This document shows, one piece after another, positions 29,712 to 62,225 of a DNA stretch of 64,000 nucleotides. Every line of letters starts with the position of its first letter. Positions within the stretch are counted from its first letter, which is position 1. The stretch is from Nitrospinaceae bacterium. GTDB taxonomy: Bacteria; Nitrospinota; Nitrospinia; Nitrospinales; VA-1. Below the pieces are notes generated by a model. The model was not told the origin of the DNA. It did no database searches and was given only the letters and a program-made list of their open reading frames with translations. The position numbers and the translations under genes are program-made. Where the stretch lies: positions 18,157 through 82,156 of the forward strand of contig JAJDAZ010000062.1 in NCBI GenBank assembly GCA_029261595.1, read 5' to 3'.

Positions 29712-30626
29712 ATGTCAATTCGTTTTCCTGCCTTTTTTTTCATTGCACTGCTTTGCTTGCTGGGGGTGTTCACGGCTCTGCCTGAAACGCGTGCCGATAA
29801 CAAAGAGGCGTCCCGCAAAAACGATTACTCGTTCATGGCCAGAATCAAGGACGGACTTTTTAAAAGAGGGTCCACCTTTGATGAAACAAAAGAGTATCTC
29901 AAGGAATGCAAGAAGAAGGACAGAACCTGTCAGCTCTGGTGGTTTGAGGACGAGCTCCCGCAGAAACTGATCGAACTGGACAGCTTCTGGATCGATATTT
30001 ATGAAGTCACCAACGCCCGCTATCTCGAATTTGTTAAGGCCACCGGGCATCGTCCGGCTCTGGACGACTCCTGCCAGACCGCAAAATGCCGGGAAGGAAA
30101 TTTATGGAACGGAAATTCCTTCCCGCCGGAGATCGCCGACCAGCCGGTCACGCAGGTCAATTGGTATGACGCGGACGCCTATTGCGCCTGGATGGGCAAA
30201 CGCCTGCCGTCGGAGGCGGAATGGGAAAAAGCCGCCCGTGGACCCAAGGGAAATGTTTATCCCTGGGGAACGGGTTCCCCAAAAGGAAAGGCCACTTTTA
30301 AAAGAAAATGGCAGGGCGCGTTGACCATGACCGATGTCGGCTCCTACCCTAAAGGCGAATCTATTTACGGGGTGTTCGACATGGCTGGAAACGTCTGGGA
30401 ATGGGTGGACGACTGGTACCACTTCAAATATTACAGCCTGGGGCGAAAGAAGAACCCAAGGGGACCCGCCAACGGAGATTTCAAGATGGTTCGCGGAGGT
30501 TCCTGGGTCAACTACGAAAACGCCCTCAGGAGTGCCTTCAGACGATGGAGCCGACCTGAAGTCCGCTTCAACGACACGGGATTCCGTTGCGCCAGGGATG
30601 ACATGGATGGGGTCTCTAAAAAATGA
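29712..30626 (+). CDS. SUMF1/FGE-fold secreted protein
   Basis: SFWIDIYEVTNARYLEFVKATGHRPALDDSCQTAKC, GKRLPSEAEWEKAARGPKGNVYPWG, GNVWEWVDDWYHFKYY, MVRGGSWVNYENALRSAFRRWSRPEVRFNDTGFRCARD. Confidence 0.9.
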   Translation: MSIRFPAFFFIALLCLLGVFTALPETRADNKEASRKNDYSFMARIKDGLFKRGSTFDETKEYLKECKKKDRTCQLWWFEDELPQKLIELDSFWIDIYEVTNARYLEFVKATGHRPALDDSCQTAKCREGNLWNGNSFPPEIADQPVTQVNWYDADAYCAWMGKRLPSEAEWEKAARGPKGNVYPWGTGSPKGKATFKRKWQGALTMTDVGSYPKGESIYGVFDMAGNVWEWVDDWYHFKYYSLGRKKNPRGPANGDFKMVRGGSWVNYENALRSAFRRWSRPEVRFNDTGFRCARDDMDGVSKK

Positions 30627-32287
30627 AACCAAAAAGAACTGACGAACTGACCGATCGCGAAAAAGAGATCCTCACTCCTTATGTCTCTGATGTGGACGCC
30701 AACGTCTTCGCGCTGAAAAATCTCAACCCCGAAGTGATCGGCGCCGCATTGGCCCGTTACAGCCGCGCACCTACCGGGCTAAAGGAAACCATCGCGCGCG
30801 AGTTTCTCAACCCCGATGGCACTCCTAATGAAATCAAGGGCAGTGCCCTGATCGACCGGGTGGTGAATAAATTCGGCGATGAGTCGGTCGCTGAGCTCGC
30901 GGTCGCACCGCTTTGCATGGAAGACGTTTCCAACCTGATGACCAAGATCATCGAAGACTGTCGAATCGGCGGCTCGCCCATTGAAGAATCGACGCGCTAC
31001 GTTTTATACGATCAGAAAAAAAACGGCGAGTGGCGTTATGTCCGGCCTCCAAACATCCTGCAATCCGGGCTGGGCAATAAGTTCACCGAAACGATGGAGT
31101 TCCTTTTTAATACCTACGCGGGTCTGGTCGAACCCATGCAGGAGCTGTTCCGCAAGCGCCTGCCCAAAGAAAAATTTCAAATCGAAGTGGACCGTGATGG
31201 GAAACCCGTAAAAGCTGGTTTAGATAAGTTGGAAAACGACGGCGAGCGCAAGGCGCACTCCATCGCCTACGGCTTCACCATCCGAAGCGCGGCCTGTGAC
31301 GTGATCCGCTGCATCCTGCCCGCCTGTACCAAGGCCAATATGGGCTTAGTTGGCAACGGCCGGTTTTATTCCGGATTGATTTCCAAACTCCTCACCCAGG
31401 ACCTTAAGGAAGGGCACACCCTGGCAGGCGGCATCCAGAAGGCGCTCAACACGCAGATCCCCACCTTCATCAAGCGGGCGGCGAAAAATAATTATCAGGC
31501 GGACAACCACCGCAACATGCGAAAACTGTGCGCCGAGTTGCTTGCGGGCATCCCGATAGAAAAATCCGCCGAAGTGGTCCTGCTCGACGACCCCCCTGGG
31601 GAACAGCAGACCCACCTTTTAGCCAGCATGATCTTTCCCCACGTTCAGCACTCGACCGAACAAATAAGAAACGTCGTTCGTTCCCTGGGCGAAGACAAGC
31701 GTAAAGAAATTTTCGCCGCTTATATCGGCGAACGAAAAACCAAAAGGGACCGTCCGGGCCGGGCTCTGGAGAACGGGTATCCCATCAATTTCGATATCGT
31801 GGCCGGGTTTGCCGAATACCGCGACCTTCAGCGCCACCGAATGCTGACTCAGCAAAGACAGGACCTGGGAGTCCTGTTGGGGTATTCAGTCCCGCAGGAG
31901 ATCGCCGAAATTGATAGAAAAGACATCGTCCGGGAATGTTTTGAGCGGAGTGAAGACCTTAACGGCGACCTCAAAAAAGCCGGGATGGAGGAAGAAGCCC
32001 AATATGTCACTTTATTCAATCATTACATCCGCTGGAACGTGGGCATGAACTTAAGGGAACTTGGGCATCTTGCGGAACTGCGGACGCAAAAAGCCGGCCA
32101 TCCGAAATACCGCCGCACCGTGCAATTGATGACGAAACTTTTTCTAAAACGGTCGCCGGAAATGGAACCAATCCTTCAATTCGTGGACCATAATGACTAC
32201 GACGGCGGCATCACCCGCGCCGATCAAGAGGCCCGTACTGCCCGTAAAAGCCTCGCATCTAACCTCTTCGACGACCAGGATGACTGA
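30623..32287 (+). CDS. FAD-dependent thymidylate synthase (ThyX)-like protein, two ThyX-like halves
   Basis: First half GDESVAELAVAPLCMEDVSNLMTKIIEDCRIGGSPIEESTRYV; second half AEYRDLQRHRMLTQQRQDLGVLLGYSVP; ATG overlaps upstream stop. Confidence 0.8.
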   Translation: MKPKRTDELTDREKEILTPYVSDVDANVFALKNLNPEVIGAALARYSRAPTGLKETIAREFLNPDGTPNEIKGSALIDRVVNKFGDESVAELAVAPLCMEDVSNLMTKIIEDCRIGGSPIEESTRYVLYDQKKNGEWRYVRPPNILQSGLGNKFTETMEFLFNTYAGLVEPMQELFRKRLPKEKFQIEVDRDGKPVKAGLDKLENDGERKAHSIAYGFTIRSAACDVIRCILPACTKANMGLVGNGRFYSGLISKLLTQDLKEGHTLAGGIQKALNTQIPTFIKRAAKNNYQADNHRNMRKLCAELLAGIPIEKSAEVVLLDDPPGEQQTHLLASMIFPHVQHSTEQIRNVVRSLGEDKRKEIFAAYIGERKTKRDRPGRALENGYPINFDIVAGFAEYRDLQRHRMLTQQRQDLGVLLGYSVPQEIAEIDRKDIVRECFERSEDLNGDLKKAGMEEEAQYVTLFNHYIRWNVGMNLRELGHLAELRTQKAGHPKYRRTVQLMTKLFLKRSPEMEPILQFVDHNDYDGGITRADQEARTARKSLASNLFDDQDD

Positions 32288-46700: not shown

Positions 46701-47321
46701 TCAACTCTCTTTGGATTTCAATTGGTGCATCAGATAGGAAGTGATGATATGGTCTAAAATCAGGTGGGCATCTTCAACCGGTCCATATTCCCCTTTAGGG
46801 GTTTGTAAGAGGATGGTATGATCAGCAAGCTTCCCCAGTTCACCGCCGTCGAACCCAGTCAGGGCAACCGCGACTCCTCCTCTTTTTTGTGCCAGTTTCG
46901 CCGCGTTAATAACGTTTGGGCTGTTTCCACTGGCAGAGATCGTAACCAGCACATCGCCTTCATTAAAAAGAAATTCCATCTGTCTTGTAAAAATGGACTC
47001 ATACCCATAATCGTTCCCCACTGCAGTAATATGGGACACATTATCCGTCAGACTTAAAACCCGAAACCCTTCACATTTCACCTTGTTACCGAGTTGGGCA
47101 AGGTCCTGGGAAAAGTGAGACGCCGTTGCCGCACTACCGCCGTTGCCGACAAAATAAATCGTCTTGGCATTTTTTCTGGCTTCCAAAAATACATTGACAA
47201 CTTGTTCGACCGATTTTCCGTCTATCCGGCTCAGCAATTTATGCAGATAGTCTACATAGGATTGATAGAAATCGGTCAAACCTTCTGATTGCTCCAAAAT
47301 TTTTTGTAAATGCGTGTCCAT
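46701..47321 (-). CDS. SIS-domain isomerase (GmhA/phosphoheptose isomerase-like)
   Basis: TIYFVGNGGSAATASHFSQDLAQLG, DVLVTISASGNSPNVINAAKLAQKRGGVAVALTGFDGGELGKLADHTILL, EDAHLILDHIITSYLM. Confidence 0.88.
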   Translation of the reverse strand: MDTHLQKILEQSEGLTDFYQSYVDYLHKLLSRIDGKSVEQVVNVFLEARKNAKTIYFVGNGGSAATASHFSQDLAQLGNKVKCEGFRVLSLTDNVSHITAVGNDYGYESIFTRQMEFLFNEGDVLVTISASGNSPNVINAAKLAQKRGGVAVALTGFDGGELGKLADHTILLQTPKGEYGPVEDAHLILDHIITSYLMHQLKSKES

Positions 47322-47752: not shown

Positions 47753-48718
47753 ATGATTCCATTATTTGACCGCAATTCCCTGGAAGTTCAATCTCTAAAT
47801 CAACGCGATCACGACCTGGATCATAGAGCGATCCGCCCTTTGGAAAAAAGTGAGTCCCCGGATCTCAAAAATAAAATGCGCTCGGTCGCTGAAAACATCG
47901 TCCGAGCCAGGAAACTCAACAGTTCCATTGTCCTGATGATGGGTGGCCACGTGATCCGTTCCGGGGTACAACACTATCTGATTGATTTAATGAAGCGGGG
48001 GTTCATCGGAGGCTTGGCGGTGAACGGTTCGGGGATCATCCACGACTATGAACTCGCCCTGATCGGAGCCACGACCGAAAGTGTCGCCCGGTATATTAAA
48101 AATGGACAATTCGGGTTGTGGAAAGAAACCGGACAATTGAACGATATTATCAACCGGGCCTATGCTGACGATCCGAGGACGGGGATGGGGGAAGCCATCG
48201 GTCGAGCCATCCACGAGGGAGACTACCCGCACAAAAACGTCAGTCTTTTTGCGACCGGATACCAGTTGAAAATCCCATTGACCGTTCATGTGGGGATCGG
48301 GTATGACATCATCCATGAGCATCCCAACTGCGACGGCGCCGCGACCGGAGCTCTTTCGTACAACGATTTTCTAAGATACACCTCCCTGATTCAAAACCTG
48401 GAAAACGGAGTCATGATGAATTTTGGAAGTGCCGTCATGGCTCCCGAAATTTTTTTAAAAGCCCTCAGCATGGCTAGAAACGTAGCCCGTCAAAAAGGGT
48501 CGACCATCCAACACTTTTCTACATTAGTGTGCGATCTTCACGATCTTCCAACTGACTTCTCAAAAGAGTCTTCGAAGGATAATCCGGGATATTATTACCG
48601 CCCCTGGAAAACCATGCTGGTCAGGACCGTGGCCGACGGAGGAAAAAGCTATTATATTCAAGCACAACATGCAGATTCCATTCCCGCGCTTTGGACTGCC
48701 ATTAACGAGGTAGAATAG
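47753..48718 (+). CDS. Deoxyhypusine-synthase-like protein (hypothetical)
   Basis: SIVLMMGGHVIRSGVQHYLIDLMKRGFIGGLAVNGSGIIHDYELALIGATTESVARYIKNGQFGLW; resembles the DHS fold by motif; ORF track start 47747 (TTG), ATG at 47753 preferred. Confidence 0.55.
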   Translation: MIPLFDRNSLEVQSLNQRDHDLDHRAIRPLEKSESPDLKNKMRSVAENIVRARKLNSSIVLMMGGHVIRSGVQHYLIDLMKRGFIGGLAVNGSGIIHDYELALIGATTESVARYIKNGQFGLWKETGQLNDIINRAYADDPRTGMGEAIGRAIHEGDYPHKNVSLFATGYQLKIPLTVHVGIGYDIIHEHPNCDGAATGALSYNDFLRYTSLIQNLENGVMMNFGSAVMAPEIFLKALSMARNVARQKGSTIQHFSTLVCDLHDLPTDFSKESSKDNPGYYYRPWKTMLVRTVADGGKSYYIQAQHADSIPALWTAINEVE

Positions 48719-48766
48719 AAACAGTGAAAAATCTGACATCCCAATCACCCCAAGCGATCAAGCCCT

Positions 48767-49240
48767 GTGAAGATTCTTAACCTGGATGACCTTGCCAGAA
48801 AATGCCAGTCCCTTAGAGAGGAAGGGAAAAAAATCGCGTATTGCCACGGTTGTTTCGACCTCATGCATCCCGGTCACATCAAATACTTTCAGGCCAGCAA
48901 AAAAATGGGGGATGCTCTGGTGGTCACGCTCACTCCCGATGAATTTGTAGATAAGGGGCCGGGACGCCCGGTCTTCAACCAAACACTGAGGGCGGAATCT
49001 ATCGCCGCCCTTGAATGTGTGGATTTTGTCGCCATTAACAAATTTCCAACGGCTGAAAAAACCCTGCGTCTTCTTCGTCCTCACTATTATGTCAAAGGCC
49101 AGGAGTTCGAACGGCTGGAGGATAAGACAGGAAAAATTCAAAAAGAATACGAGGTGGTGAAGGAAGTGGGGGCAAAGATGCGGTTCACTCAGGAAATTAC
49201 TTTTTCTTCCACCAAGCTTTTGAACGAATATTTTAAGTAA
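48767..49240 (+). CDS. Cytidylyltransferase-family nucleotidyltransferase (RfaE2/HldE C-domain-like)
   Basis: KKIAYCHGCFDLMHPGHIKYFQASKKMGDALVVTLTPDEFVDKGPGRPVFNQTLRAESIAALECVDFVAI (intact HPGH); GTG start. Confidence 0.87.
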   Translation: MKILNLDDLARKCQSLREEGKKIAYCHGCFDLMHPGHIKYFQASKKMGDALVVTLTPDEFVDKGPGRPVFNQTLRAESIAALECVDFVAINKFPTAEKTLRLLRPHYYVKGQEFERLEDKTGKIQKEYEVVKEVGAKMRFTQEITFSSTKLLNEYFK

Positions 49241-49246
49241 CCCATT

Positions 49247-50779
49247 ATGGATAATTCCGGTAAAGAAAAATCGTTTCATCTGGACAAATTGCTGGACAAA
49301 GTCCAGTCCCTGAAACAGGAAGGGAAAAAAATTGTCCAAAGCCATGGGGTTTACGATCTGATCCATCCCGGTATCATCCAGCACCTCAAATCCGCCAAAC
49401 AGCAGGGCGATATTCTACTGGTGACCGTGATCCGGGACAAGGATATCCGCCGGGGACCTGGCTGGCCCATTTTTAATGAACAATTGCGAATGGAAAATAT
49501 CGCGGCCCTGGACCTGGTCGACCTGGTCTGTCTGGTGGACGACGAGACCCCTTTCGAGTGCGTCAGGAGGATCAAGCCCGATGTGTTCGCCAAAGGTCAG
49601 GCATATAAAGATCGTGATCAGAAAATTCACGAAAGGCTCTTCGAGGAGGAAAGAGAGCTTTACTTCGGAAAAAGTAAACTTTTCGAGACCGATGGATTTT
49701 CTTTCAGTTCTTCGCAAATCATCAAACAACTGCTGGATTTTTATCCGGAAGGAACCAAAGAATTTTTAAAGTCCTTTTCCAAAAATTATAGCATCAACGA
49801 AATCGCCGAAAACCTGGAATCGCTGAAGAACCTCAAAGTTTTGGTCGTGGGAGACGGGATCATAGACGAATACCACTACTGCCAACCCATTGGAAAGTCG
49901 GCAAAAGCCAATCTGGTCGTGAATCAATATCTAGACCACGAGGTATTCGCGGGAGGAGCCTTTGCTATCGCCAATCACGTGGCGGGAATTTGCGATGAGG
50001 TCACCCTGGTCTCTCTTCTAGGAAAAGACGATTCCAGAGAGGATTTTATTGCGGCCAACATGAAGCCAAATGTCAAGACCCGGTTTTTCCTGAGAGACGA
50101 CGCTCCGACCATTGTCAAAAAACGGTATGTCCACCAATACCTGAACCAAAAGTTATTTGAGATCAATTATATTAACGACCGCTTCGTAGACGACGACCTG
50201 GAAACCGAAATCATTCAATATCTGGAGAACGCGATCTCCGAATTCGATGTCGTATTGATTTCGGATTTTGGTCATGGGTTCATCAGTAAAGGGATTTATG
50301 ACTGCATCGAGAGGGTTTCAAAGGTACTGGCGGTCAACACCCAGACCAACGCCGCAAATTTAGGTTATAATTTGATCACCAAATACCGGAATCCTCACTA
50401 CGTCTGTCTGGATGAGTCGGAAATCCGCCTCGCCGCCCAGGAAAAGTTCGAGGACATTGAATCCATTGCCCGGCGAATTCGGAAAAAGATCAACGCCAAC
50501 TATCTCATTGTAACGCAGGGGAAGAAAGGCTCCATCGGGGTCAACAGCGGCAATGCCATCAACCGAACCCCAATTTTCTCAACTAAGGTGATTGATACGG
50601 TCGGAGCTGGGGACGCGTTTTTCGCTTTCACGGCTCCCTGCTTTGCCCGGGGTCTTCCTCTCGACTTTGTCTCGTTCATCGGCAATGCGGTGGGGGCGCT
50701 GGCTGTACAGATTGTCTGCAACAAAAAATCCGTCGAAAAGGCCGATCTGCTTACCTTCATTCGTTCCCTTCTGAGGTAG
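49247..50779 (+). CDS. Bifunctional-type protein: N-terminal cytidylyltransferase-like domain + C-terminal PfkB kinase domain
   Basis: N-term KKIVQSHGVYDLIHPGIIQHLKSAKQQGDILLVTVIRDKDIRRGPGWPIFNEQLRMENIAAL; C-term LVVGDGIIDEYHYCQPIGKSAKANLVV..VFAGGAFAIANHVAG..VIDTVGAGDAFFAF. Confidence 0.9.
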   Translation: MDNSGKEKSFHLDKLLDKVQSLKQEGKKIVQSHGVYDLIHPGIIQHLKSAKQQGDILLVTVIRDKDIRRGPGWPIFNEQLRMENIAALDLVDLVCLVDDETPFECVRRIKPDVFAKGQAYKDRDQKIHERLFEEERELYFGKSKLFETDGFSFSSSQIIKQLLDFYPEGTKEFLKSFSKNYSINEIAENLESLKNLKVLVVGDGIIDEYHYCQPIGKSAKANLVVNQYLDHEVFAGGAFAIANHVAGICDEVTLVSLLGKDDSREDFIAANMKPNVKTRFFLRDDAPTIVKKRYVHQYLNQKLFEINYINDRFVDDDLETEIIQYLENAISEFDVVLISDFGHGFISKGIYDCIERVSKVLAVNTQTNAANLGYNLITKYRNPHYVCLDESEIRLAAQEKFEDIESIARRIRKKINANYLIVTQGKKGSIGVNSGNAINRTPIFSTKVIDTVGAGDAFFAFTAPCFARGLPLDFVSFIGNAVGALAVQIVCNKKSVEKADLLTFIRSLLR

Positions 50780-51211
50780 GTTCTCTTCTCAGAGCCCAAA
50801 ATAAGGAGAAATTCTCTGCTTCCCCGGGCAGTACTGTCTGTTTTTTTGTGTTGTATTGAGAATATAGAGGTCTTTTATCATAGCTTGGGATTTTCGGCCC
50901 TGTCATCTCCCTGATTTATTTTAAATGACATCCTGATCTCTAAATACTGGCAGACAGACCGTTGGTCCCTGATCCCCCAGAAAAAAACACTTTGGATATT
51001 TTTCCCTTTCCGGTTATTTTCAAACAGGGCTTTAAAATGCCGGTAAAATGCTTTAGAGTAAGCCAATTGCGGTCTTCACCCATAGCCCTTAGACGGCAGG
51101 AAACTAAATTTTATCTGGATTCAGAAAAATTTAACAACTGATATTTCAGGTATTTTCCAGCCCGATCCATTAACATTTCCATCACCCGAACCAGCCTGCC
51201 CCAATCGGAGA

Positions 51212-52291
51212 ATGAGCGTGGCCGATAAATTTGGCATAGACAATCATAAACTCAATTACCACCTTTCCAGAGTGAACGACTGGCTGGAACGGAAAGAAGT
51301 TTACCCGATTTATTTGGAGATTTCCCCGGCTGGTGCCTGCAACCATAGATGTGTTTTTTGTGCGGTCGATTACATTGGCTATCAAACGGTTTTCCTCGAC
51401 CCTGAGATATTAAAAAGCCGCCTGTCGGAAATGGGCCGTTTAGGAGTCAAAAGCGTCATGTACGCAGGAGAGGGAGAACCGCTTCTGCACAAAAGGTTGC
51501 CTGAAATCATTCACCACACCCGGGATTCCGGAATCGATGTTTCTATCACCACCAATGCCGTGCCTTTGACCTCCGCCTGGGCATTGGAAGCCATGGGTGC
51601 CATCACCTGGATTAAAACCAGTATCAATGCCGGGACGCCGGAAACCTATGCCCAAATTCATCAGACCAAACCCGAAGATTTTGGCAAAGTTGTGTCTAAC
51701 CTGGAAACCGCTGTAAAAATCCGTAATCAAAAAAACTGGGATTGTACCCTTGGGTCGCAAATGGTGTTGTTGCCGGAAAATGAAAAAGAAGCCCTGCTTC
51801 TGGCCAAAACCATGAAAAAAGTGGGCTGTGATTATTTGGTGATCAAACCCTATTCCCAGCACAATTCCAGTATCACCCGAACCTATGAAGGAGTCGACTA
51901 TTCGGACTCGACGTATCTTAAAGATGATCTGGCGACACTGAATGATGACAGTTTTTCCGTGGTCTTCCGTGAAAATACTTTGAACAAGCTCTTCGAAAAT
52001 GACCATTATTACGACAAATGCGGTGCCACCCCTTACTTCTGGGGATACATTATGGCGGACGGTTCTCTTTATGGATGTAGCGCCTATCTTCTGGATGAGC
52101 GATTCTGCTACGGAAATATCAATGACCATTCCTTTCAGGAAATTTGGGAAGGGGAGAAACGTCGGCGAAACATCGAATTTGTCGAGAACGAGCTCAACAT
52201 CAAGGACTGCCGCAAAAACTGCCGCATGGATTCTGTGAATCGGTATTTGTGGGATTTGAACCACCCTCCGGAGCATGTCAACTTTATATGA
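51212..52291 (+). CDS. Radical SAM/SPASM protein (paralog of 54383-55798)
   Basis: EISPAGACNHRCVFCAVDYIG (CxxxCxxC), MYAGEGEPLLHKRLPEII, C-terminal CGATPYFWGYIMADGSLYGCSAYL..CRKNCRMDSVNRYLWDLNHPPEHVNFI. Confidence 0.92.
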   Translation: MSVADKFGIDNHKLNYHLSRVNDWLERKEVYPIYLEISPAGACNHRCVFCAVDYIGYQTVFLDPEILKSRLSEMGRLGVKSVMYAGEGEPLLHKRLPEIIHHTRDSGIDVSITTNAVPLTSAWALEAMGAITWIKTSINAGTPETYAQIHQTKPEDFGKVVSNLETAVKIRNQKNWDCTLGSQMVLLPENEKEALLLAKTMKKVGCDYLVIKPYSQHNSSITRTYEGVDYSDSTYLKDDLATLNDDSFSVVFRENTLNKLFENDHYYDKCGATPYFWGYIMADGSLYGCSAYLLDERFCYGNINDHSFQEIWEGEKRRRNIEFVENELNIKDCRKNCRMDSVNRYLWDLNHPPEHVNFI

Positions 52292-53229
52292 TCGACCATC
52301 AATGGGCGGAAAAAGCTTATACCCTCCTGGTCACGATTCGTAAGACCGAGGAAGCGATCGCGTCTGAATACAAGAATCAGGAGATGCGTTGTCCTGTCCA
52401 TCTTTCCATTGGCCAGGAAGCGATTGCGGTCGGGGTGTCGATGTGCCTCGGAAATGAAGACATTGTTTTCAGCAACCACCGTTGCCATAGCCACTACCTG
52501 GCGAAAGGTGGAAATTTGAACGCGATGATCGCGGAGCTTTACGGTAAAAGCACAGGGTGCGTCAAAGGTTTAGGGGGTTCGATGCATCTCATGGATGATG
52601 AGGTCGGAATGTTGGGGGCCTCCTCAATCGTGGGAGGAAGCATCCCTTTGGCCGTTGGAGCGGGTCTCACTCTTAAAATGCGGGAAAAGCCCCATGTTGC
52701 GGTCACGTTTTTTGGTGACGGGGCCTCGGAAGAAGGAGTTTTCCATGAAAGCATGAACTTTGCCGCTTTAAAAAAACTTCCTGTGGTGTTTGTTTGTGAA
52801 AACAATTTTACGGCCACGTCTTCGCCCCTTTCCTCCCGCAGACCCATGGATAATATTTTCCGGCATGGAGAAGTCTTTGGAATTCCAGGGACCTCTGTGG
52901 ATGGCAATGATGTGGTCGCGGTTTATGAAGCCACCCGCGATGCGGTCCAACGCATAAGAAAGGGAGAGGGACCGAGCCTGATCGAGGGTAAGACTTTTCG
53001 CATGCTAAAGCATGTTGGGCCGGAAATAGACACCTCCTCTGGGGTCCGAACCCAGGAAGAATGGAATCGATGGCAAGAGAAATGTCCTGTGAAAAAATTT
53101 GAAGAACTGTGCCTGAATGAAGATTTACTTTCCGCGAGGGAAACGGAAAAAATTCAAAAAAGAATCGAGATGAAAATAGACCGGGCGTTTGAACTGGCAA
53201 AATCAGACCCTGTTGCCCAATGGATCTGA
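52288..53229 (+). CDS. TPP-dependent dehydrogenase E1 component, alpha subunit-like
   Basis: CPVHLSIGQEAIAVGVSMCLGNEDIVFSNHRCHSHYLAKGG, AELYGKSTGCVKGLGGSMHL, VTFFGDGASEEGVFHESMNFAALKKLPVVFVCENN (TPP motif); ATG overlaps upstream TGA. Confidence 0.94.
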   Translation: MIDHQWAEKAYTLLVTIRKTEEAIASEYKNQEMRCPVHLSIGQEAIAVGVSMCLGNEDIVFSNHRCHSHYLAKGGNLNAMIAELYGKSTGCVKGLGGSMHLMDDEVGMLGASSIVGGSIPLAVGAGLTLKMREKPHVAVTFFGDGASEEGVFHESMNFAALKKLPVVFVCENNFTATSSPLSSRRPMDNIFRHGEVFGIPGTSVDGNDVVAVYEATRDAVQRIRKGEGPSLIEGKTFRMLKHVGPEIDTSSGVRTQEEWNRWQEKCPVKKFEELCLNEDLLSARETEKIQKRIEMKIDRAFELAKSDPVAQWI

Positions 53230-53242
53230 AAATGGGGAAGCG

Positions 53243-54295
53243 ATGAATAAGAAACGCACTCTGACATATCGTGAAGCGATCAGTGAAGCCTTGGTTCAGG
53301 GGATGGAAGCCGATTCCAACGTATTTATCATGGGCTGTGGTGTGGATGACGAGGGAGGTATTTTTGGAACCACCCAAGACGCGTTTAAAAGATTTGGCGG
53401 CGCCCGGGTAATGGATGCGCCACTGGCAGAAAATGCGATCGCGGGCATCGGGGTTGGCGCCGCGGTCACCGGAATGAGACCTGTCATCGTTCACGCCCGA
53501 AATGATTTCCTGCTGCTGGCAATGGATCAAATCGTCAATCACGCTTCGAAATGGAACTTCATGAGCGGCGGAAAACTGGATTGCCCCCTGGTGATTCGAG
53601 CAATCGTCGGGCGGGGATGGGGCCAGGGAGCGCAACATTCGCAAAGCCTGCAAGCCCTTTTTTCCCACATTCCTGGAATCAAAGTCATGCTTCCCGCCAC
53701 CGCTTATGATGCCAAAGGTCTGCTGCTTTCAAGCCTCAGAGACAATCAAACCGTTATCTCCATAGAACACCGTCTGCTATACGAAACCAAGGACTCGGTT
53801 CCCGTTGAACCATATTTTGTGCCTTTTGGGAAAGGGACCCTTAAACGAAAAGGGGCCGACCTCACAATTGTGGCTTTTTCATTCATGGTGAAAGAAGCGA
53901 TGGACGCGGCGCACCGTCTGGCTGAAGAGGGAATCGAGGTGGAAATAATCGATCCTCGATGCTCGTCTCCGCTGGATATGGATCTGATTCTGGAATCCGT
54001 TCAAAAAACCTGCCGCTTGTTGGTCGCCGATACCGGCTGGTCCAGCTATGGCATTTCAGCAGAGGTTTGCACACGGGTATACGGGCAATTATTCGACCGG
54101 TTAAAAGCGCCTATCAGGAGGGTCGCCTTACCGGATGTGCCGACCCCCTGCGCCTCTAACTTGGAAAAAGAATATTATCCGGGAGTGGATGCTCTGGTGG
54201 ATGCGTGCCATATTCTCCTTGATAATGGCCGGGAGGGAAATACCACGGAAAAACTTTTGCCTGCAGAACACGCCCGGTTTCAGGGCCCGTTTTAA
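53243..54295 (+). CDS. TPP-dependent dehydrogenase E1 component, beta subunit-like (transketolase Pyr/C domains)
   Basis: TYREAISEALVQGMEADSNVFIMGCGVDDEGGIFGTTQDAFKRFGGARVMDAPLAENAIAGIGVGAAVTGMRPVIVHARNDFLLLAMDQIVNHASKWNFMSGG. Confidence 0.94.
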   Translation: MNKKRTLTYREAISEALVQGMEADSNVFIMGCGVDDEGGIFGTTQDAFKRFGGARVMDAPLAENAIAGIGVGAAVTGMRPVIVHARNDFLLLAMDQIVNHASKWNFMSGGKLDCPLVIRAIVGRGWGQGAQHSQSLQALFSHIPGIKVMLPATAYDAKGLLLSSLRDNQTVISIEHRLLYETKDSVPVEPYFVPFGKGTLKRKGADLTIVAFSFMVKEAMDAAHRLAEEGIEVEIIDPRCSSPLDMDLILESVQKTCRLLVADTGWSSYGISAEVCTRVYGQLFDRLKAPIRRVALPDVPTPCASNLEKEYYPGVDALVDACHILLDNGREGNTTEKLLPAEHARFQGPF

Positions 54296-54382
54296 TTTTT
54301 AGATAGCGTCTAGAGTAACCTCATATCAATTGCACGCAGGAGCGGATGACCTCTGCCAAACCTATAAACAGAAATTGTAACT

Positions 54383-55798
54383 ATGAATGAACCCACCAAC
54401 AAAAAAAACCGCTTTGGTAAAGATACCATCACCAATATCCCCGACGACGCCCCCATTGCCAAATCTCCCGGTCACAAGCTGAGGACGTCCAACGTTATTG
54501 TCGACCGCAAGGTTTTGGCGGATGAAGAAAAAAAGCTACTCGCAAACCGACCCGATTCCAAAAAACTGGACAAACTGGAAGACCAGGAACTCGAATACAT
54601 CAAATACGAAGACCAGGTGGGCTTGATAAGAAAACCTCCTGAACCCGGAGAAGAAGAGAAAAAAGTTGAAATCCCCAATCTGTTCACCGGTCCCAGTTTC
54701 CGCAACCCACCGTCACGCTTTCGGTTTGATGGTCATAAAATGATGCACCATCTGGACCGGATTGCCGCCTGGCAAGCCGGAGAAAAGTTCGCCCCCATTC
54801 ACATCGACATGGGACTCACAAAATTTTGCAATACCGCCTGTATTTACTGCTATGCCGTGGTCCAGAATATGACCAAGGGAACCATGATTGGGCGAGACGC
54901 CCTCCTCCGCTACATCGAAGACTGTGGAAGGCTGGGAGTGCGCTCCATCGGATTTATCGGTGACGGGGAGCCGACATTGAATCCGGCCATGTACGATGCA
55001 ACGGTGCTGGCAAAACAACTGGGCATCGACACCGCCATGGCCACCAACGGGATCATCCTGGACATGGACCGGGCCGATGAAATGTTGCGGGACATGACCT
55101 GGATTCGATTCAATCTGTCCGCCGGGGATCGCGAAGGGTTTAAGCGGGTACACCAGTCTACCGAAGAAAGTTTCGACTTGCTGGTGGAAAAAATTAAGGC
55201 ATTGGTCCGGACCAAGAAGGAAAACAACTACCAATGCACCTTGGGTTTACAGATGGTACTGATTCCTGAATGTTTTGATCAGGTGATCAAGGAAGCGGAA
55301 CTCGGGGCTGAACTCGGAGTCGATTATTTTGTGATCAAACACTGCTCCGATTCGGAATATAAGGAAATCGGCATCGATTACGATAATTACTTGAGCATCG
55401 AGGATCTTCTTAAAGATGCGGAGACTTATTCCAATGATGATTATGTCGTTCAAGTTAAATGGAATAAAATCATGGCGGCCGGAGAGTCGGATTTATACAA
55501 AAACGGTTACCGGAAATACGATGTCTGTTACGGAACCCCCTTCTTGCTGCAAATCTCCGGCAATGGGAAAATCTATCCCTGCGGTCCATTTTTTAATAAG
55601 GAAAGGTTCTATATTGGGGATCTTCACGAACAGTCGTTTTTTGATACCGTCATGGGTGATCGATACTGGGAAGTTCATCAAGACGTGGTGGAGTCCGTAG
55701 ACGTTCATAAAGACTGCGCCATCGGGTGCCGGCAGGATTATGTGAACAAGTTCCTATGGGATCTGAAAAACGGGCCAGAACACGTCAATTTCATATAG
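54383..55798 (+). CDS. Radical SAM/SPASM protein (paralog of 51212-52291) with ~110-aa N-terminal extension
   Basis: DMGLTKFCNTACIYCYAVVQNMTKGTMIG, IGFIGDGEPTLNPAMYD, CYGTPFLLQISGNGKIYPCGPFF..CAIGCRQDYVNKFLWDLKNGPEHVNFI. Confidence 0.92.
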   Translation: MNEPTNKKNRFGKDTITNIPDDAPIAKSPGHKLRTSNVIVDRKVLADEEKKLLANRPDSKKLDKLEDQELEYIKYEDQVGLIRKPPEPGEEEKKVEIPNLFTGPSFRNPPSRFRFDGHKMMHHLDRIAAWQAGEKFAPIHIDMGLTKFCNTACIYCYAVVQNMTKGTMIGRDALLRYIEDCGRLGVRSIGFIGDGEPTLNPAMYDATVLAKQLGIDTAMATNGIILDMDRADEMLRDMTWIRFNLSAGDREGFKRVHQSTEESFDLLVEKIKALVRTKKENNYQCTLGLQMVLIPECFDQVIKEAELGAELGVDYFVIKHCSDSEYKEIGIDYDNYLSIEDLLKDAETYSNDDYVVQVKWNKIMAAGESDLYKNGYRKYDVCYGTPFLLQISGNGKIYPCGPFFNKERFYIGDLHEQSFFDTVMGDRYWEVHQDVVESVDVHKDCAIGCRQDYVNKFLWDLKNGPEHVNFI

Positions 55799-55927
55799 CT
55801 CTAACAACCGAATTATGAGAACCCCCTGGATTAATGTTGTAAAAAATGACAAAATAGTAATGTATAATTTTTCCTTGCGCTGTCCTCAAATTAACTTATT
55901 AAATAACCATATCGTCTAGGAGGTTAG

Positions 55928-57742
55928 ATGCATATGAGATTGTTATTGGTCGTCCCCAGATATTACCCTGATTGGGAAAGCAACAAGACGTTTTACTTGT
56001 TGCCCTGGGGGTTAATGTATATTTCATCTTATTTGAAACAACAGGGTTTTGAAGTTCATGTTCTTAATCAAAACCATTATGGACCTGATAAATTAGCGGA
56101 AATCCTCTCCCAGAATTCTTTTGATGCCGTATTGACTGGCGGATTACAGGTTCATTTACAACCCGTCAAAAGGGTGGTTGACATAGTCAAGGATCACGAT
56201 CCTCGTATCCTGACCATCGTTGGAGGGCCCATGGCAACCTCACATGCTGAACTGGTCATAGAAAGCCTGGAGATAGATTATGCCGTTTTGGGCGAAGGCG
56301 AGGAAGTCGCGTTCAATCTTTTAACCGCTCTGCAGAGTGGGCAGGATGTTCAAGAGATATTGGGAATAGCCTATAGAGAAAACGGAAAATTTGTTAAAAC
56401 CCCCGAAGCCCCCCGCATTGCCGATCTCGATGCTTTGCCTTTTCCGGATTATGAGAGCTTTGAGTTTGATCATTATCTCGACAATTACGAATTTGAAAAC
56501 CAAATGGAAGTGGTAAACCCCGGCGTGCGAATGGCTTACATTGCGGGAAGCCGTGACTGCCCAGCCAAATGCACCTTTTGTTTTAGAACCATGGGCGGTG
56601 AATATGTGGTGCGATCCGTTGATAATGTTATGAAGGAAATCAAGTTCCTCATGGAGAGGTATAGGGTCAACCAGATCGAATTGAGCGATGAAATCTTCTC
56701 GGTGAATAAAAAACGGGTTTACGAATTCTGCGATCAAATAGAGAAACTTAACATCCCCTGGACCTGTCAAATCCGGGTGAATATGATTAACGAGGCCTTG
56801 ATTTTAAGAATGAAAGAGGCAGGCTGTATATTAATTAGCTATGGTCTTGAAAGTGCCAGCCCGGCCATTTTAAAGAGCATGCAGAAGGGCGTTAGAGTCG
56901 ATCAAATTGAAACAGCCCTTCAGGCTACCAGAAAAGCCAAAGTGACCATTCAAGGTAATTGGATTTTTGGAGATCCCGATGAATCGCCTCAAACCGTTCG
57001 GGAAACCCTGGATTTTAACCGGAAATACCGGGACTATTGTATTCATCTAGATGTTCTTCTCGCTTATCCGGGAACCCCCATGTACTTTGATGCACTCGAA
57101 AGAGGATTGGTGGCAGACCGGATTGAGTTTTTCGAAACCGGCCACAACGAGCATGGAGAACCTTTGAACGTCACCTCCATGAGCGAGGATGACTATTATG
57201 CTCTCAGAAAAAAGCTTTTACTTGAAGCGCGAGCGACCAGTATTTTCGGTAAAATTTTAAAAATCAAGGGGATTAAAGGAGGCAAATTTTTAGCTTCCGT
57301 CATTTGCCCCTACTGTGAGTTTTGCAACGAAGATATGATCGTTGTGAAACGCGCCTACGGAATGATTCCCTTCGCCTGCCGTTCCTGCTTCCAACGTTTT
57401 AAAATTGATGAAATGGGTTTGCCTAAGTATCAAAATTTATTTAAAAGAAACTTCAAGCTCCTAAAAAGAAAAATAGGCAATACAACTTTATTTTTATTGA
57501 GCCTGAAATTTGAACCCGATTTATTTAAAAATAAGCCGTTATGGTTTTTGTTGATGCCAGTTTATTACACAGTATCTGTCCTAAGAATTAATACCATTAT
57601 CGGCAAATGTCGGCGAATTCGTCGAAAAATAAAAAGCACGGTCCGTCAACAACCAGGGAAGGTCAATGATGAGTTATTGAAGACCGACACCAAAACCTGG
57701 ATGGTTGGGGAAGAGCATAAAGCGTTGTTGAAACGAGCCTAG
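55928..57742 (+). CDS. B12-binding-domain radical SAM protein with C-terminal Cys-rich region
   Basis: RLLLVVPRYYPDWESNKTFYLLPWGLMYISSYLKQQGFEVHVLNQ, AVLGEGEEVAFNLL, AGSRDCPAKCTFCFRTMGG (CxxxCxxC), C-terminal CPYCEFCNEDMIVVKRAYGMIPFACRSCFQRF. Confidence 0.93.
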   Translation: MHMRLLLVVPRYYPDWESNKTFYLLPWGLMYISSYLKQQGFEVHVLNQNHYGPDKLAEILSQNSFDAVLTGGLQVHLQPVKRVVDIVKDHDPRILTIVGGPMATSHAELVIESLEIDYAVLGEGEEVAFNLLTALQSGQDVQEILGIAYRENGKFVKTPEAPRIADLDALPFPDYESFEFDHYLDNYEFENQMEVVNPGVRMAYIAGSRDCPAKCTFCFRTMGGEYVVRSVDNVMKEIKFLMERYRVNQIELSDEIFSVNKKRVYEFCDQIEKLNIPWTCQIRVNMINEALILRMKEAGCILISYGLESASPAILKSMQKGVRVDQIETALQATRKAKVTIQGNWIFGDPDESPQTVRETLDFNRKYRDYCIHLDVLLAYPGTPMYFDALERGLVADRIEFFETGHNEHGEPLNVTSMSEDDYYALRKKLLLEARATSIFGKILKIKGIKGGKFLASVICPYCEFCNEDMIVVKRAYGMIPFACRSCFQRFKIDEMGLPKYQNLFKRNFKLLKRKIGNTTLFLLSLKFEPDLFKNKPLWFLLMPVYYTVSVLRINTIIGKCRRIRRKIKSTVRQQPGKVNDELLKTDTKTWMVGEEHKALLKRA

Positions 57743-58065: not shown

Positions 58066-59424
58066 ATGCCCATGGAAATTCTGAGTAAGTGCAAAGAAAA
58101 TTTTGAGTCTGTTGCTAACGCGCCATATCCTCAAAACTTTTCAGTTAGTTCGTGGTGGGAAAATATCCAGGAAAAAAGCTTCAAGCAAATAAGAAACTTT
58201 AAAAAACCTCAGGATGGAATAGATTATGCCCAGACCCATTCCTTAAGCGGATTCGACCATAGAAGCAAGGAAGCCATATGGACACTTGAAATCAAAATAA
58301 AAGCAATACGACGCGCCTTTCCTTCTTTTGACATTGCCAGTTGCCCAGAATTAAGAGAATCTTCATTCTCCGCCCCCTCAACAATTGCCAAAATCAATGA
58401 AATCCCCTACAGCAATATTTTCCTTTCTCACGTTCATTATTATTTGAGGAGCACTTCATATTGCGAAAATAAACAGGATATTAATACGGTTTTGGAAATA
58501 GGAGGGGGATATGGAGCTTTGGCGAGAATATTCAAATTAATGAAGCCTCAGGCTAGTTACACCATTGTAGATTTGCCTGAATCATTATTTTTTGCCGAGC
58601 TTTTTTTATCCTTGAATTTTCCTGAAGCCAAAATTTCCTACTCGAATAAAATTGAAAAGGCAAATACTGAAGGGGTGGATTTTCTTTTAGTACCCATTCA
58701 ATCTATTCAAAATATTTATGACAAAGAATTTGATCTTGTCATCAATACAGGCAGCCTTCAAGAAATGCCTGATGAAACAGTACGATATTTCATGGATTTC
58801 ATTCAATCAAAAATAAAAGTTAAACGCTTCTACAGTTTCAATTATTTTTTAAATAACAAAAGAAACTTTCAGGAAACAAGTGGTGAAAAATCCAATTTAA
58901 TTTGCCCCATATTGGACCCATATTGGGAAACAGTCTATTTCGAAATCAACCCCTTGACTTTGACGATTGACGCCAACCGCCGAAATTGGTTGGAGGTGCT
59001 TGTTGAGCGAAAATCTAAAGAAAACATCCAACAGAACATGCTGAAGGAAAATGGTTCCAAAAATTTTGAAATGGCCCAAAAGTTCCCTAAAGGAAGCAAC
59101 GCCTGGTTGGAGCATATATGGATGGCAGTTTGGCTGGACCCATGCGAAAAATATTTAAAAGAAATTCTGAAGGGAATTAAAATATTTAAATTGGGATTTG
59201 GTCAAAATAATTATCTTCCTTCCCAAAAGCCATTTGACTCTAACAACTTTGTTGAAGTCCTGGGCATAAATAAAAATTTCATTAAAAAATTTATTAAAAG
59301 ATGGGAACAGAAATTCAGGTTTTCGATCAGGAAAAAGGAATGGTATGATGCCGCCATATACAGTGAAGAGATATACTATCAAAATCTCTTGCATCTTTTA
59401 TCGCGGGATGATCATAAGCCATAA
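58066..59424 (+). CDS. Putative sugar O-methyltransferase
   Basis: NTVLEIGGGYGALARIFKLMKPQASYTIVDLPESLFFAELFLSLNFPEA, FDLVINTGSLQEMPDETVRYFMDFI; AT-rich gene in glycan locus. Confidence 0.78.
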   Translation: MPMEILSKCKENFESVANAPYPQNFSVSSWWENIQEKSFKQIRNFKKPQDGIDYAQTHSLSGFDHRSKEAIWTLEIKIKAIRRAFPSFDIASCPELRESSFSAPSTIAKINEIPYSNIFLSHVHYYLRSTSYCENKQDINTVLEIGGGYGALARIFKLMKPQASYTIVDLPESLFFAELFLSLNFPEAKISYSNKIEKANTEGVDFLLVPIQSIQNIYDKEFDLVINTGSLQEMPDETVRYFMDFIQSKIKVKRFYSFNYFLNNKRNFQETSGEKSNLICPILDPYWETVYFEINPLTLTIDANRRNWLEVLVERKSKENIQQNMLKENGSKNFEMAQKFPKGSNAWLEHIWMAVWLDPCEKYLKEILKGIKIFKLGFGQNNYLPSQKPFDSNNFVEVLGINKNFIKKFIKRWEQKFRFSIRKKEWYDAAIYSEEIYYQNLLHLLSRDDHKP

Positions 59425-60704: not shown

Positions 60705-62225
60705 CTAATAATCATCCAGCTCAGGTAAAAATTGGTCAAAATAACGTACCCGACACTCCTCCATCAGGCTCTCCCATTTAGCATCTCCCTCTTCGGTAAA
60801 ACTTTCTGCCATTTGAATTTCAGGCCAGCGGTCTTCCTCCAGAAGCACATAGGGCACAAAGCAACGCTTCAAACCGCCAATCTCTTTTGCTGAAAACTGC
60901 GGCATGTCTAAAACAGTGGGGGAGGAGAGAGATTTTACGATCAAATCTTTTGCTATTAGCCCCTGTTCAACAGCAATCTGCCTTAATGGTGTTCCATGAA
61001 ACGGAGTAAAGGTGTACATATTCCGGGTATCAGCATTAATACGCCGGTTGATACGGATGGTATCCATTGCCAATTCACGGGTTTCATTTGGAAAACCAAT
61101 TATATTATTAACCGAATATTTGACATCAAAATGATTTAAGATTTTTAAGTCTTCAACAATTTTGTTGCTGGAAACTTTTCTGTCGAGCATTTTTGCTCTA
61201 AACTCTTCATTACCATGTTCTAATCCAAGGCCCATGCGGTGAATGCCCATTTCCTTTAGCATGGAAACGCGCTGCTCTGTAAGAGTCTCCGGCCTGGTTT
61301 GACACCAAAATGGCAAATCAATATCTGATTTGTACATTTCCGCAAATTCTTCAAAATATTGATCTGACCAAGCCAAAAACGTATCGGCCCAAAAATAAAA
61401 ATATTCAGCTCCAAAATTTTCTTTGTAATGGAGCAATTCTCTTCTGACACCATCCACATCTTTCAATCTGAAATAAACTTCCCCCGCATCCTTATAAATT
61501 TTTTCTTTGGAGGGAGAGTTACAATACGCACATTTATAAGGGCATCCACGGTGGGTCTCAACGGGAAAAGTGCGATAGTTTTTGCCATCAAACGGTTTAT
61601 AAAACCGAGCTTCTTCAAAGAGTCCTACATCTGGAATTGGCACATCATTAATTGAGAAGGCGGTGTCCATTGGGTTTTTTGTTACAGAACCATTTTTTTT
61701 AACCCAAAGCCCTTGAACATGAGAATAATCCAGCCCCTTTTCAATTTTCTTACAGAGATTTATGAGGGCGTTTTCACCATCTCCTACGCAAAGAATATCA
61801 ATCTCGTCGAAACTGATCACTAACTCTGGCGCAAACGTTGCCACCATTCCTCCGATGATAACGGGGGGCCTGACTTTTTTGGGTATTTTACTTAACAACT
61901 TAATCCCGAGCGGGAACATGTCTTCGGTGGAGGATACTGCTATAAGCTGTGGGTCAAACGACTCGACTTCGTTAACGAATTCACTAAAAACATCGGTCGT
62001 TTTCAACGTCACATCGATCGGAGCTTTTTGATAAGGGCGAACGTGAAGGTTTTTTTCCTTGTATTCGTCATTATTCAACAGGCCTTCTTCAGGGATCTCC
62101 CAATAGGTGGTATCGAAAAGACGGCAATCGTGTCCTTCATTCTTTAGCAAAGAGGAGAAAATGGCGATGGCTGGCGGCAACATATTCATACCGCGCGCAT
62201 TTGGGTAAACAAAAAGGACTCGCAA
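60705..62225 (-). CDS. B12-binding-domain radical SAM protein
   Basis: MRVLFVYPNARGMNMLPPAIAIFSSLLKNEGHDCRLFDTTY, VIIGGMVATFAPELVI, VETHRGCPYKCAYCNSPSKEKIY (CxxxCxxC), MGIHRMGLGLEHGNEEFRAKMLDRK. Confidence 0.93.
   Translation of the reverse strand: MRVLFVYPNARGMNMLPPAIAIFSSLLKNEGHDCRLFDTTYWEIPEEGLLNNDEYKEKNLHVRPYQKAPIDVTLKTTDVFSEFVNEVESFDPQLIAVSSTEDMFPLGIKLLSKIPKKVRPPVIIGGMVATFAPELVISFDEIDILCVGDGENALINLCKKIEKGLDYSHVQGLWVKKNGSVTKNPMDTAFSINDVPIPDVGLFEEARFYKPFDGKNYRTFPVETHRGCPYKCAYCNSPSKEKIYKDAGEVYFRLKDVDGVRRELLHYKENFGAEYFYFWADTFLAWSDQYFEEFAEMYKSDIDLPFWCQTRPETLTEQRVSMLKEMGIHRMGLGLEHGNEEFRAKMLDRKVSSNKIVEDLKILNHFDVKYSVNNIIGFPNETRELAMDTIRINRRINADTRNMYTFTPFHGTPLRQIAVEQGLIAKDLIVKSLSSPTVLDMPQFSAKEIGGLKRCFVPYVLLEEDRWPEIQMAESFTEEGDAKWESLMEECRVRYFDQFLPELDDY

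Follow-up and report, generated by a model that had tools for sequence, protein, structure and literature searches.

The window, a 64,000-nucleotide stretch of a Nitrospinaceae bacterium genome, carries a run of genes whose domains were assigned from Pfam and NCBIfam profile matches. The core of the cassette begins with rSAM-1 (51212..52291, plus strand), a twitch-like radical SAM/SPASM enzyme recognized by radical SAM and SPASM profile matches. It is followed on the same strand by an E1-alpha-like subunit of a TPP enzyme (52288..53229; PF00676 (E1_dh), 270 bits), an E1-beta-like subunit (53243..54295; PF02779 Transket_pyr and PF02780 Transketolase_C) and rSAM-2 (54383..55798), which is likewise a radical SAM/SPASM enzyme but is extended at its N-terminus by ∼110 residues. 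Upstream, also on the plus strand, are a GSU2086-family protein with a deoxyhypusine-synthase (DHS) fold, possibly NAD-using (47753..48718; NF052581, 381 bits), an RfaE-domain-II-like nucleotidyltransferase (NT; 48767..49240; PF01467) and an NT-PfkB fusion (49247..50779; PF01467 at residues 34-129, PF00294 at residues 197-488). A GmhA-like SIS-domain isomerase (46701..47321, minus strand; PF13580, 71 bits) precedes them, and a co-directional B12-binding radical SAM protein (55928..57742, plus strand; PF02310 and PF04055) closes the run. Every open reading frame of the original prediction was found at its coordinates and strand, the start codon of the DHS-like gene is the ATG at 47753, and the ATGA overlap of the rSAM-1 stop and the E1-alpha start is seen at 52288-52291.

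rSAM-1 shows the radical SAM SPASM/twitch pattern: a CxxxCxxC motif at residues 43-50 (C43/C47/C50) is combined with the auxiliary-cluster cysteines C270, C289, C333 and C337, and all seven cysteines are invariant in 33 orthologs. The same cysteine pattern is present in rSAM-2, which is 34% identical to rSAM-1 and shares its C-terminal HVNFI motif. In a fold search with the AF2 model of rSAM-1 (pLDDT 94.3), DesII was the nearest fold (E 1.9e-17), with SuiB, SkfB and BlsE also close, and the closest sequence matches among solved structures (PDB) were DesII and BlsE. The protein scores below the cut-off of the DesII family (TIGR04426, 49 bits vs. 450).

The E1 pair scores 296 bits against the PDH E1 profile TIGR03182, below the cut-off of 393.85. 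Its TPP catalytic residues are intact, with E63 and H132 of E1-beta aligning with Glu59 and His128 of human PDH beta, while H84, R86, R124 and R177 of E1-beta are invariant, clade-specific and absent from PDH. The absence of a lipoyl E2, previously noted for the locus, extends to the whole assembly (91% complete), which gave 0 matches to PF00198, and no E2 was found in the cassette-bearing relatives G001, G006, G014, G032, G037 and G098. In the E1-alpha tree, a branch with 100/99 support separates 40 E2-less loci from 17 E2-type loci; the E2-less, E2-independent clade that contains this protein comes mostly from glycan loci and is separate from every sampled PDH and acetoin enzyme. This tree rules out acetoin dehydrogenase as the nearest relative, despite 43% identity by BLAST, and a housekeeping PDH E1 is ruled out by the separate clade together with the missing E2 in the genome and its relatives. 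These results place the pair outside the 2-oxoacid dehydrogenase complexes, in agreement with the earlier view that a complete complex was unlikely, and neither PDH nor acetoin dehydrogenase is its ortholog.

Conservation of the cassette was assessed in 39 loci from other genomes, each with a relative of rSAM-1 and at least 6 kb of downstream sequence. A TPP pair lies within 8 kb on the same strand in 31 of the 39, always downstream of rSAM-1, and a second SPASM enzyme is present in 25 of these 31. The co-occurrence of rSAM-1 and TPP genes is thus widespread and far above chance. The original prediction had an E1 pair in the TPP slot, and this picture can be extended: the slot is occupied by E1-alpha/beta in 18 loci and by a split transketolase in 13. 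The two are never found together (0/39 loci; hypergeometric p 2.5e-5), and at least nine swaps between them are seen on the rSAM-1 tree. No recognized TPP pair is present in 8 of the 39 loci. Cultured bacteria with a related locus include Azospirillum oryzae, where it lies on a plasmid (L117), and Methylomonas WSC-6 and WSC-7. Neighboring genes include SIS (19/39), PfkB (16/39) and SDR (19/39), and most loci are flanked by SIS, SDR, nucleotidyltransferase and glycosyltransferase genes. As a core member the B12-binding protein at 55928 is unsupported: its matches around other rSAM-1 loci reach only 22-37% and none is at a conserved position, which places it probably outside the conserved core. 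From the gene run that had been treated as one set, rSAM-1, the E1 pair and rSAM-2 emerge as conserved, the B12-binding protein probably drops out and the DHS-like, NT and NT-PfkB genes separate.

These last three genes make up a second module, one that some but not all rSAM/TPP loci carry, and the SIS gene at 46701, outside the originally predicted region, belongs with it. The "DHS-like" label of the 47753 protein is right by fold: Foldseek placed deoxyhypusine synthase 7cmc at the top for its AF2 model (pLDDT 80; E 6e-8, TM ∼0.55), followed by AgrE/ArgZ and LOR/SDH, and a paralog at L063:11091-12224 has a weak match to PF01916. The module resembles the ADP-heptose pathway (GmhA, HldE) in its SIS isomerase, PfkB kinase and RfaE-II-like nucleotidyltransferase, but it differs in the NT-PfkB fusion at 49247, whose domain order is reversed relative to HldE, in the extra nucleotidyltransferase and in the added DHS-fold protein. 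Its scores are also far under the ADP-heptose equivalog cut-offs (gmhA TIGR00441, 118 bits vs. 209; rfaE_dom_I, 128.5 vs. 345; rfaE_dom_II TIGR02199, 99.9 vs. 181.5), and elsewhere in the genome (G000:C5:54008-55336) a distinct HldE-like protein is encoded whose kinase domain comes before the nucleotidyltransferase.

The cassette recurs across many phyla in loci for cell-surface sugars, and its TPP enzyme most likely adds a C2 branch to an activated sugar. The fuller proposal, in which the two linked modules cooperate to make a single unusual activated sugar destined for a surface glycan, is an even call. The SIS, NT-PfkB, NT and DHS-fold proteins would isomerize, 1-phosphorylate and nucleotide-activate a heptose-like sugar or polyol, alongside the regular HldE-like enzyme of the cell. 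rSAM-1 would then generate a radical on the activated sugar, which would end up as a ketone or deoxy-ketone. To this putative ketone the E1-alpha/beta heterodimer would add an acetyl carbanion obtained by decarboxylating pyruvate, so that the sugar gains a C2 branch and a tertiary alcohol. rSAM-2 may alter this product further by radical epimerization, deoxygenation or oxidation. In loci with a split transketolase in the E1 slot, hydroxyacetyl would be added instead of acetyl. The E2 searches, the separate E1-alpha clade, the intact TPP residues, the conserved linkage and the E1/transketolase exchange all speak for this reading. It is also favored because the ThDP enzymes published as adding C2 branches to keto-sugars likewise comprise E1-like pairs and, as a proposal, split transketolases, because SIS/PfkB/NT and SDR genes flank the cassette, and, for a sugar as the substrate of rSAM-1, because its DesII and BlsE matches act on nucleotide-linked sugars. 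Against it, the SDR found in 19/39 loci, rather than rSAM-1, could make the ketone; the 8 loci noted above lack a recognized TPP pair; and the peptide-modifying SuiB and SkfB are close to modeled rSAM-1 by fold. The three outcomes named beforehand as refuting the original prediction did not occur: the genes co-occur widely, no E2 was found in the genome, and the E1 pair is no ortholog of PDH or acetoin dehydrogenase. The predicted glycan-locus pathway, so far undescribed and with C2 transfer by a free-standing TPP enzyme, is supported; we infer its radical steps and glycan product, along with the substrates, the order of steps and the identity of the branch, from sequence.

Several other chemistries were weighed. 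The TPP enzyme might act first, forming a longer or 1-deoxy ketose in the style of DXP synthase or transketolase, with SIS, PfkB and NT following and the radical SAM enzymes working late on the nucleotide sugar. GmhA/HldE-like enzymes do act on ketose or aldose phosphates derived from transketolase products, a split transketolase can stand in for E1, and the SIS and PfkB frequencies fit this order. We nevertheless consider it doubtful, since the TPP gene directly follows rSAM-1 in many loci, neither SIS nor PfkB lies close by in several of the rSAM-1/TPP loci (e.g., L042, L043, L045, L058, L059, L066 and L067), and the known E1-like pairs of sugar loci branch keto-sugars (PMC12247030). It is less probable still that the acceptor is not a sugar, the TPP pair joining C2 to, for example, a lipid or amino-acid-derived glycan substituent that the radical SAM enzymes tailor: a Streptomyces member of the E1 clade (L137) does lie among PKS/NRPS-type rather than sugar genes, but the neighbors in most loci are those of sugar activation and transfer listed above. 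A coupled reaction, in which the C2 unit carried on TPP traps the sugar radical made by the radical SAM enzyme or trades an electron with it, so that the C-C bond forms at a non-ketone carbon (radical acylation), would explain both the constant position of rSAM-1 upstream of the TPP genes and the fact that the C2 carrier can be an E1 pair in one locus and a transketolase in another; we rate it as quite improbable. SPASM enzymes commonly modify peptides, and SuiB and SkfB have folds close to rSAM-1, yet maturation of a RiPP by the radical SAM pair, with the TPP and sugar genes as incidental neighbors, is very improbable given that the conserved partners are TPP and sugar-activation genes, that the closest fold is DesII, and that the 432-base gap before rSAM-1 showed no precursor-like ORF in common with the close relative G001 (two close genomes compared). 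A standard dehydrogenase E1 (pyruvate, branched-chain or acetoin), placed here by accident with its E2/E3 elsewhere, would fit the PDH E1 sequence family and the intact catalytic residues but is already refuted as far as sequence can do so by the missing E2 in this 91% complete assembly and the cassette-bearing relatives, by the distinct E1-alpha clade and by a linkage to rSAM-1 kept across phyla.

If the favored sugar-branching reading is true, a class of surface sugars over many bacterial phyla would combine radical SAM chemistry with TPP-dependent C2 transfer. The exchange of E1 and transketolase at one genomic position would be a natural experiment, making an acetyl or hydroxyacetyl branch predictable from the genome. 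It would also account for E1-alpha/beta genes in genomes without a detected E2, which are easily mis-annotated as pyruvate dehydrogenase. Nothing direct on a radical SAM plus transketolase/E1 sugar pathway was found in the literature searched, in which few subscription papers were covered; a region of Campylobacter fetus with several radical SAM proteins and two transketolase subunits is mentioned incidentally (PMC5013579). ThDP-dependent synthesis of branched sugars is already known; no description was found of the recurring combination of a radical SAM pair with a TPP enzyme.

The SIS/NT-PfkB/DHS-fold trio is the same as in Geobacter GSU2085-GSU2087 (hldE, GSU2086, gmhA), listed as a sugar biosynthesis operon, whose mutants are impaired in electrode growth (PMC5585712). 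DesII, BlsE and BtrN are radical SAM enzymes with sugars, nucleotide sugars or aminocyclitols as substrates; rSAM-1 is nearest to DesII in fold and to DesII and BlsE in sequence, with only 13-19% identity over the fold. Among the published ThDP enzymes that put C2 branches on keto-sugars are E1-like pairs (AviB1/B2, Pau11/12, the aldgamycin enzyme and KbDH) and, as proposed, split-gene transketolases (PMC12247030, PMC4425429, PMC4753412). The former, alpha-KADH2-type carboligases (KbDH as KbDH-alpha/beta), use pyruvate to place a C2 branch on a ketone (PMC12247030, PMC4425429). By analogy, the E1 pair described here may be a C2 transferase from pyruvate to a ketone: it too is an E1-like TPP enzyme of two subunits, keeps its catalytic residues, has no E2 partner in the assembly searched and lies in a sugar/glycan locus with SIS/PfkB/NT/SDR/glycosyltransferase neighbors. 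It differs in its occurrence in surface-glycan loci of many phyla, in the two SPASM enzymes that bracket E1 and in the linked GmhA/HldE-like activation genes. The split-gene transketolases of miharamycin and amipurimycin, for which hydroxyacetyl transfer to a keto-sugar is proposed, are reported from Streptomycetes only (PMC12247030); a split transketolase likewise occupies the slot in 13 loci here, but it alternates with E1-alpha/beta in one constant place downstream of rSAM-1. YerE, which adds a C2 branch to a CDP-4-keto sugar for yersiniose A of the Yersinia O-antigen, shares TPP-dependent C2 branching in an O-antigen pathway but belongs to the decarboxylase superfamily rather than to the E1 or transketolase families, and is described there without radical SAM partners (PMC12247030).

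The run of genes read in the original prediction was recovered in the window by open reading frame and domain checks. Just upstream and divergent to it lies a GmhA-like SIS gene (46701-47321). The run itself encodes a GSU2086-family protein (47753-48718), an RfaE-II-like nucleotidyltransferase (48767-49240) and a nucleotidyltransferase-PfkB fusion (49247-50779), followed after a gap of 432 bases by the radical SAM/SPASM enzyme rSAM-1 (51212-52291), E1-alpha (52288-53229), E1-beta (53243-54295), a second radical SAM/SPASM enzyme, rSAM-2 (54383-55798), and a B12-binding radical SAM protein (55928-57742). The ATGA overlap already noted between the end of rSAM-1 and the start of E1-alpha was seen again when gaps and overlaps were checked. 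The two SPASM enzymes share 34% identity, and each has HVNFI as its C-terminal end. A NanM-type sugar O-methyltransferase and another radical SAM-like protein (58066-59424 and 60705-62225) belong to the same glycan locus, outside the region first described. Elsewhere in the window, a protein of 554 aa (30623-32287) contains two ThyX (Thy1) stretches and is possibly a duplicated or fused thymidylate synthase.

A scan of one genome per species, with an alignment of nine rSAM-1 orthologs as query, yielded 50 loci from Omnitrophota, Nitrospirota, Myxococcota, Pseudomonadota, Campylobacterota, Planctomycetota, Elusimicrobiota and others. The co-occurrence of rSAM-1 and TPP genes, on which the prediction depended, extends to these genomes: of the 39 loci in which 6 kb or more follows rSAM-1, 31 carry a TPP enzyme pair on the same strand within 8 kb, against ~1% expected by chance (our estimate, given that a genome has between one and a few full-length E1 pairs). 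The pair is downstream of rSAM-1 in 31/31, and a second SPASM enzyme is present in 25 of the 31, after the TPP genes in 22 of these 25. Other neighbours among the 39 include SIS (19), SDR (19) and PfkB (16) proteins. Within the phylum of the window's organism, rSAM-1 occurs in only 8 of the 77 genomes examined; it is therefore patchily distributed there and probably mobile between lineages.

On the sequence evidence, the E1 pair does not belong to a dehydrogenase complex, as anticipated. No lipoyl E2 partner (PF00198) was found in the window's own genome (3.78 Mb, 91% complete), where E1-alpha is the sole strong E1_dh match, or in the cassette-bearing relatives G001, G006, G014, G032, G037 and G098. 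In a tree of 60 E1-alpha proteins, a 100/99 branch separates the window and other loci that lack an E2 partner (40 in all) from 17/17 E2-type rows, a class in which E2 is not adjacent in every row (about 7 of the 12 from one genome search lie within a few kb of E2, and none was found in the draft genome of G072). Among the E2-type rows are acetoin dehydrogenase, a plasmid PDH and a Sphingobium pair accompanied by a lipoyl protein; the tree thus contradicts orthology to acetoin or pyruvate dehydrogenase. The TPP site retains its catalytic residues, beta E63 and H132 aligning with Glu59 and His128 of the human beta subunit. Four basic residues (beta H84, R86, R124 and R177) are invariant in the E2-less clade and absent from PDH; the first three adjoin TPP-pocket segments in the alignment to human and would suit a charged sugar acceptor.

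The TPP slot is filled by E1-alpha/beta in 18 of the 39 loci, by a split transketolase (PF00456 plus PF02779/PF02780) in 13 and by both in none (hypergeometric p = 2.5e-5, in a test that ignores relatedness of loci). Parsimony on one rSAM-1 tree, restricted to loci that have a TPP pair, gives at least nine changes of state, and four-base ATGA-type overlaps with rSAM-1 recur in both versions (E1 in L048, L050 and L058; transketolase in L072). Together, these patterns argue that the rSAM-1 requirement is for a TPP C2-transfer enzyme, not for E1 specifically. A Campylobacter fetus recombination region (CFF8240_1582-1612), in which several radical SAM proteins are encoded along with two transketolase subunits, glycosyltransferases and a methyltransferase (PMC5013579), may be the transketolase version in a cultured species.

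The E2-less clade also holds a second conserved set in the window's relatives, mostly E1-alpha, E1-beta, SDR, nucleotidyltransferase, DegT and SDR, often with a B12-binding radical SAM gene in front (L119, L120, L123, L125-L132, L138); it is also found on a Solidesulfovibrio magneticus plasmid. Azospirillum oryzae shows the order SIS-SDR-E1a-E1b-DegT-DegT-rSAM. Within the clade, a pair on Streptomyces griseofuscus pSGRIFU1 (L137; E1-alpha 53% identical to the window's) adjoins PKS/NRPS-type and butyrolactone-regulator genes, and around two divergent pairs (L121, G014:C34; L122, G018:C57) no sugar or radical SAM neighbours were recognised.

The SIS, nucleotidyltransferase, nucleotidyltransferase-PfkB and GSU2086-family genes form a separate module that would supply the sugar, since GSU2086/DHS-like proteins occur in only 5 of the 39 loci and the module lies on the opposite strand in G006. 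The earlier DHS-like label holds, a structure model of the window protein and a fold search giving a deoxyhypusine-synthase fold. The same genome encodes a further HldE-like protein whose domains are in the usual order. A DHS-like paralog (L063:11091-12224; 33% to GSU2086, weak PF01916) lies between rSAM-1 and a split transketolase. The module's trio is that of Geobacter GSU2085-2087 (hldE, GSU2086, gmhA), whose mutants are impaired on electrodes (PMC5585712).

The rSAM-1 structure model (pLDDT 94.3) has DesII as its nearest fold, then SuiB, SkfB and BlsE, and by sequence its closest relatives with solved structures are DesII and BlsE. This likeness, together with known C2-branching TPP enzymes, suggests a sugar-branching pathway, for which we infer the substrates and order of steps. 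The SIS, PfkB and nucleotidyltransferase proteins would synthesize an activated sugar on which a ketone would be generated by rSAM-1 or an SDR; the TPP enzyme would add a branch there, and rSAM-2 would further modify the branched sugar. Two-subunit E1-like enzymes transfer C2 from pyruvate onto sugar ketones in avilamycin, paulomycin, aldgamycin and kibdelomycin, and split-gene transketolases are proposed to transfer hydroxyacetyl to keto-sugars in miharamycin and amipurimycin (PMC12247030, PMC4425429, PMC4753412); the two kinds of protein found in the TPP slot match these two.
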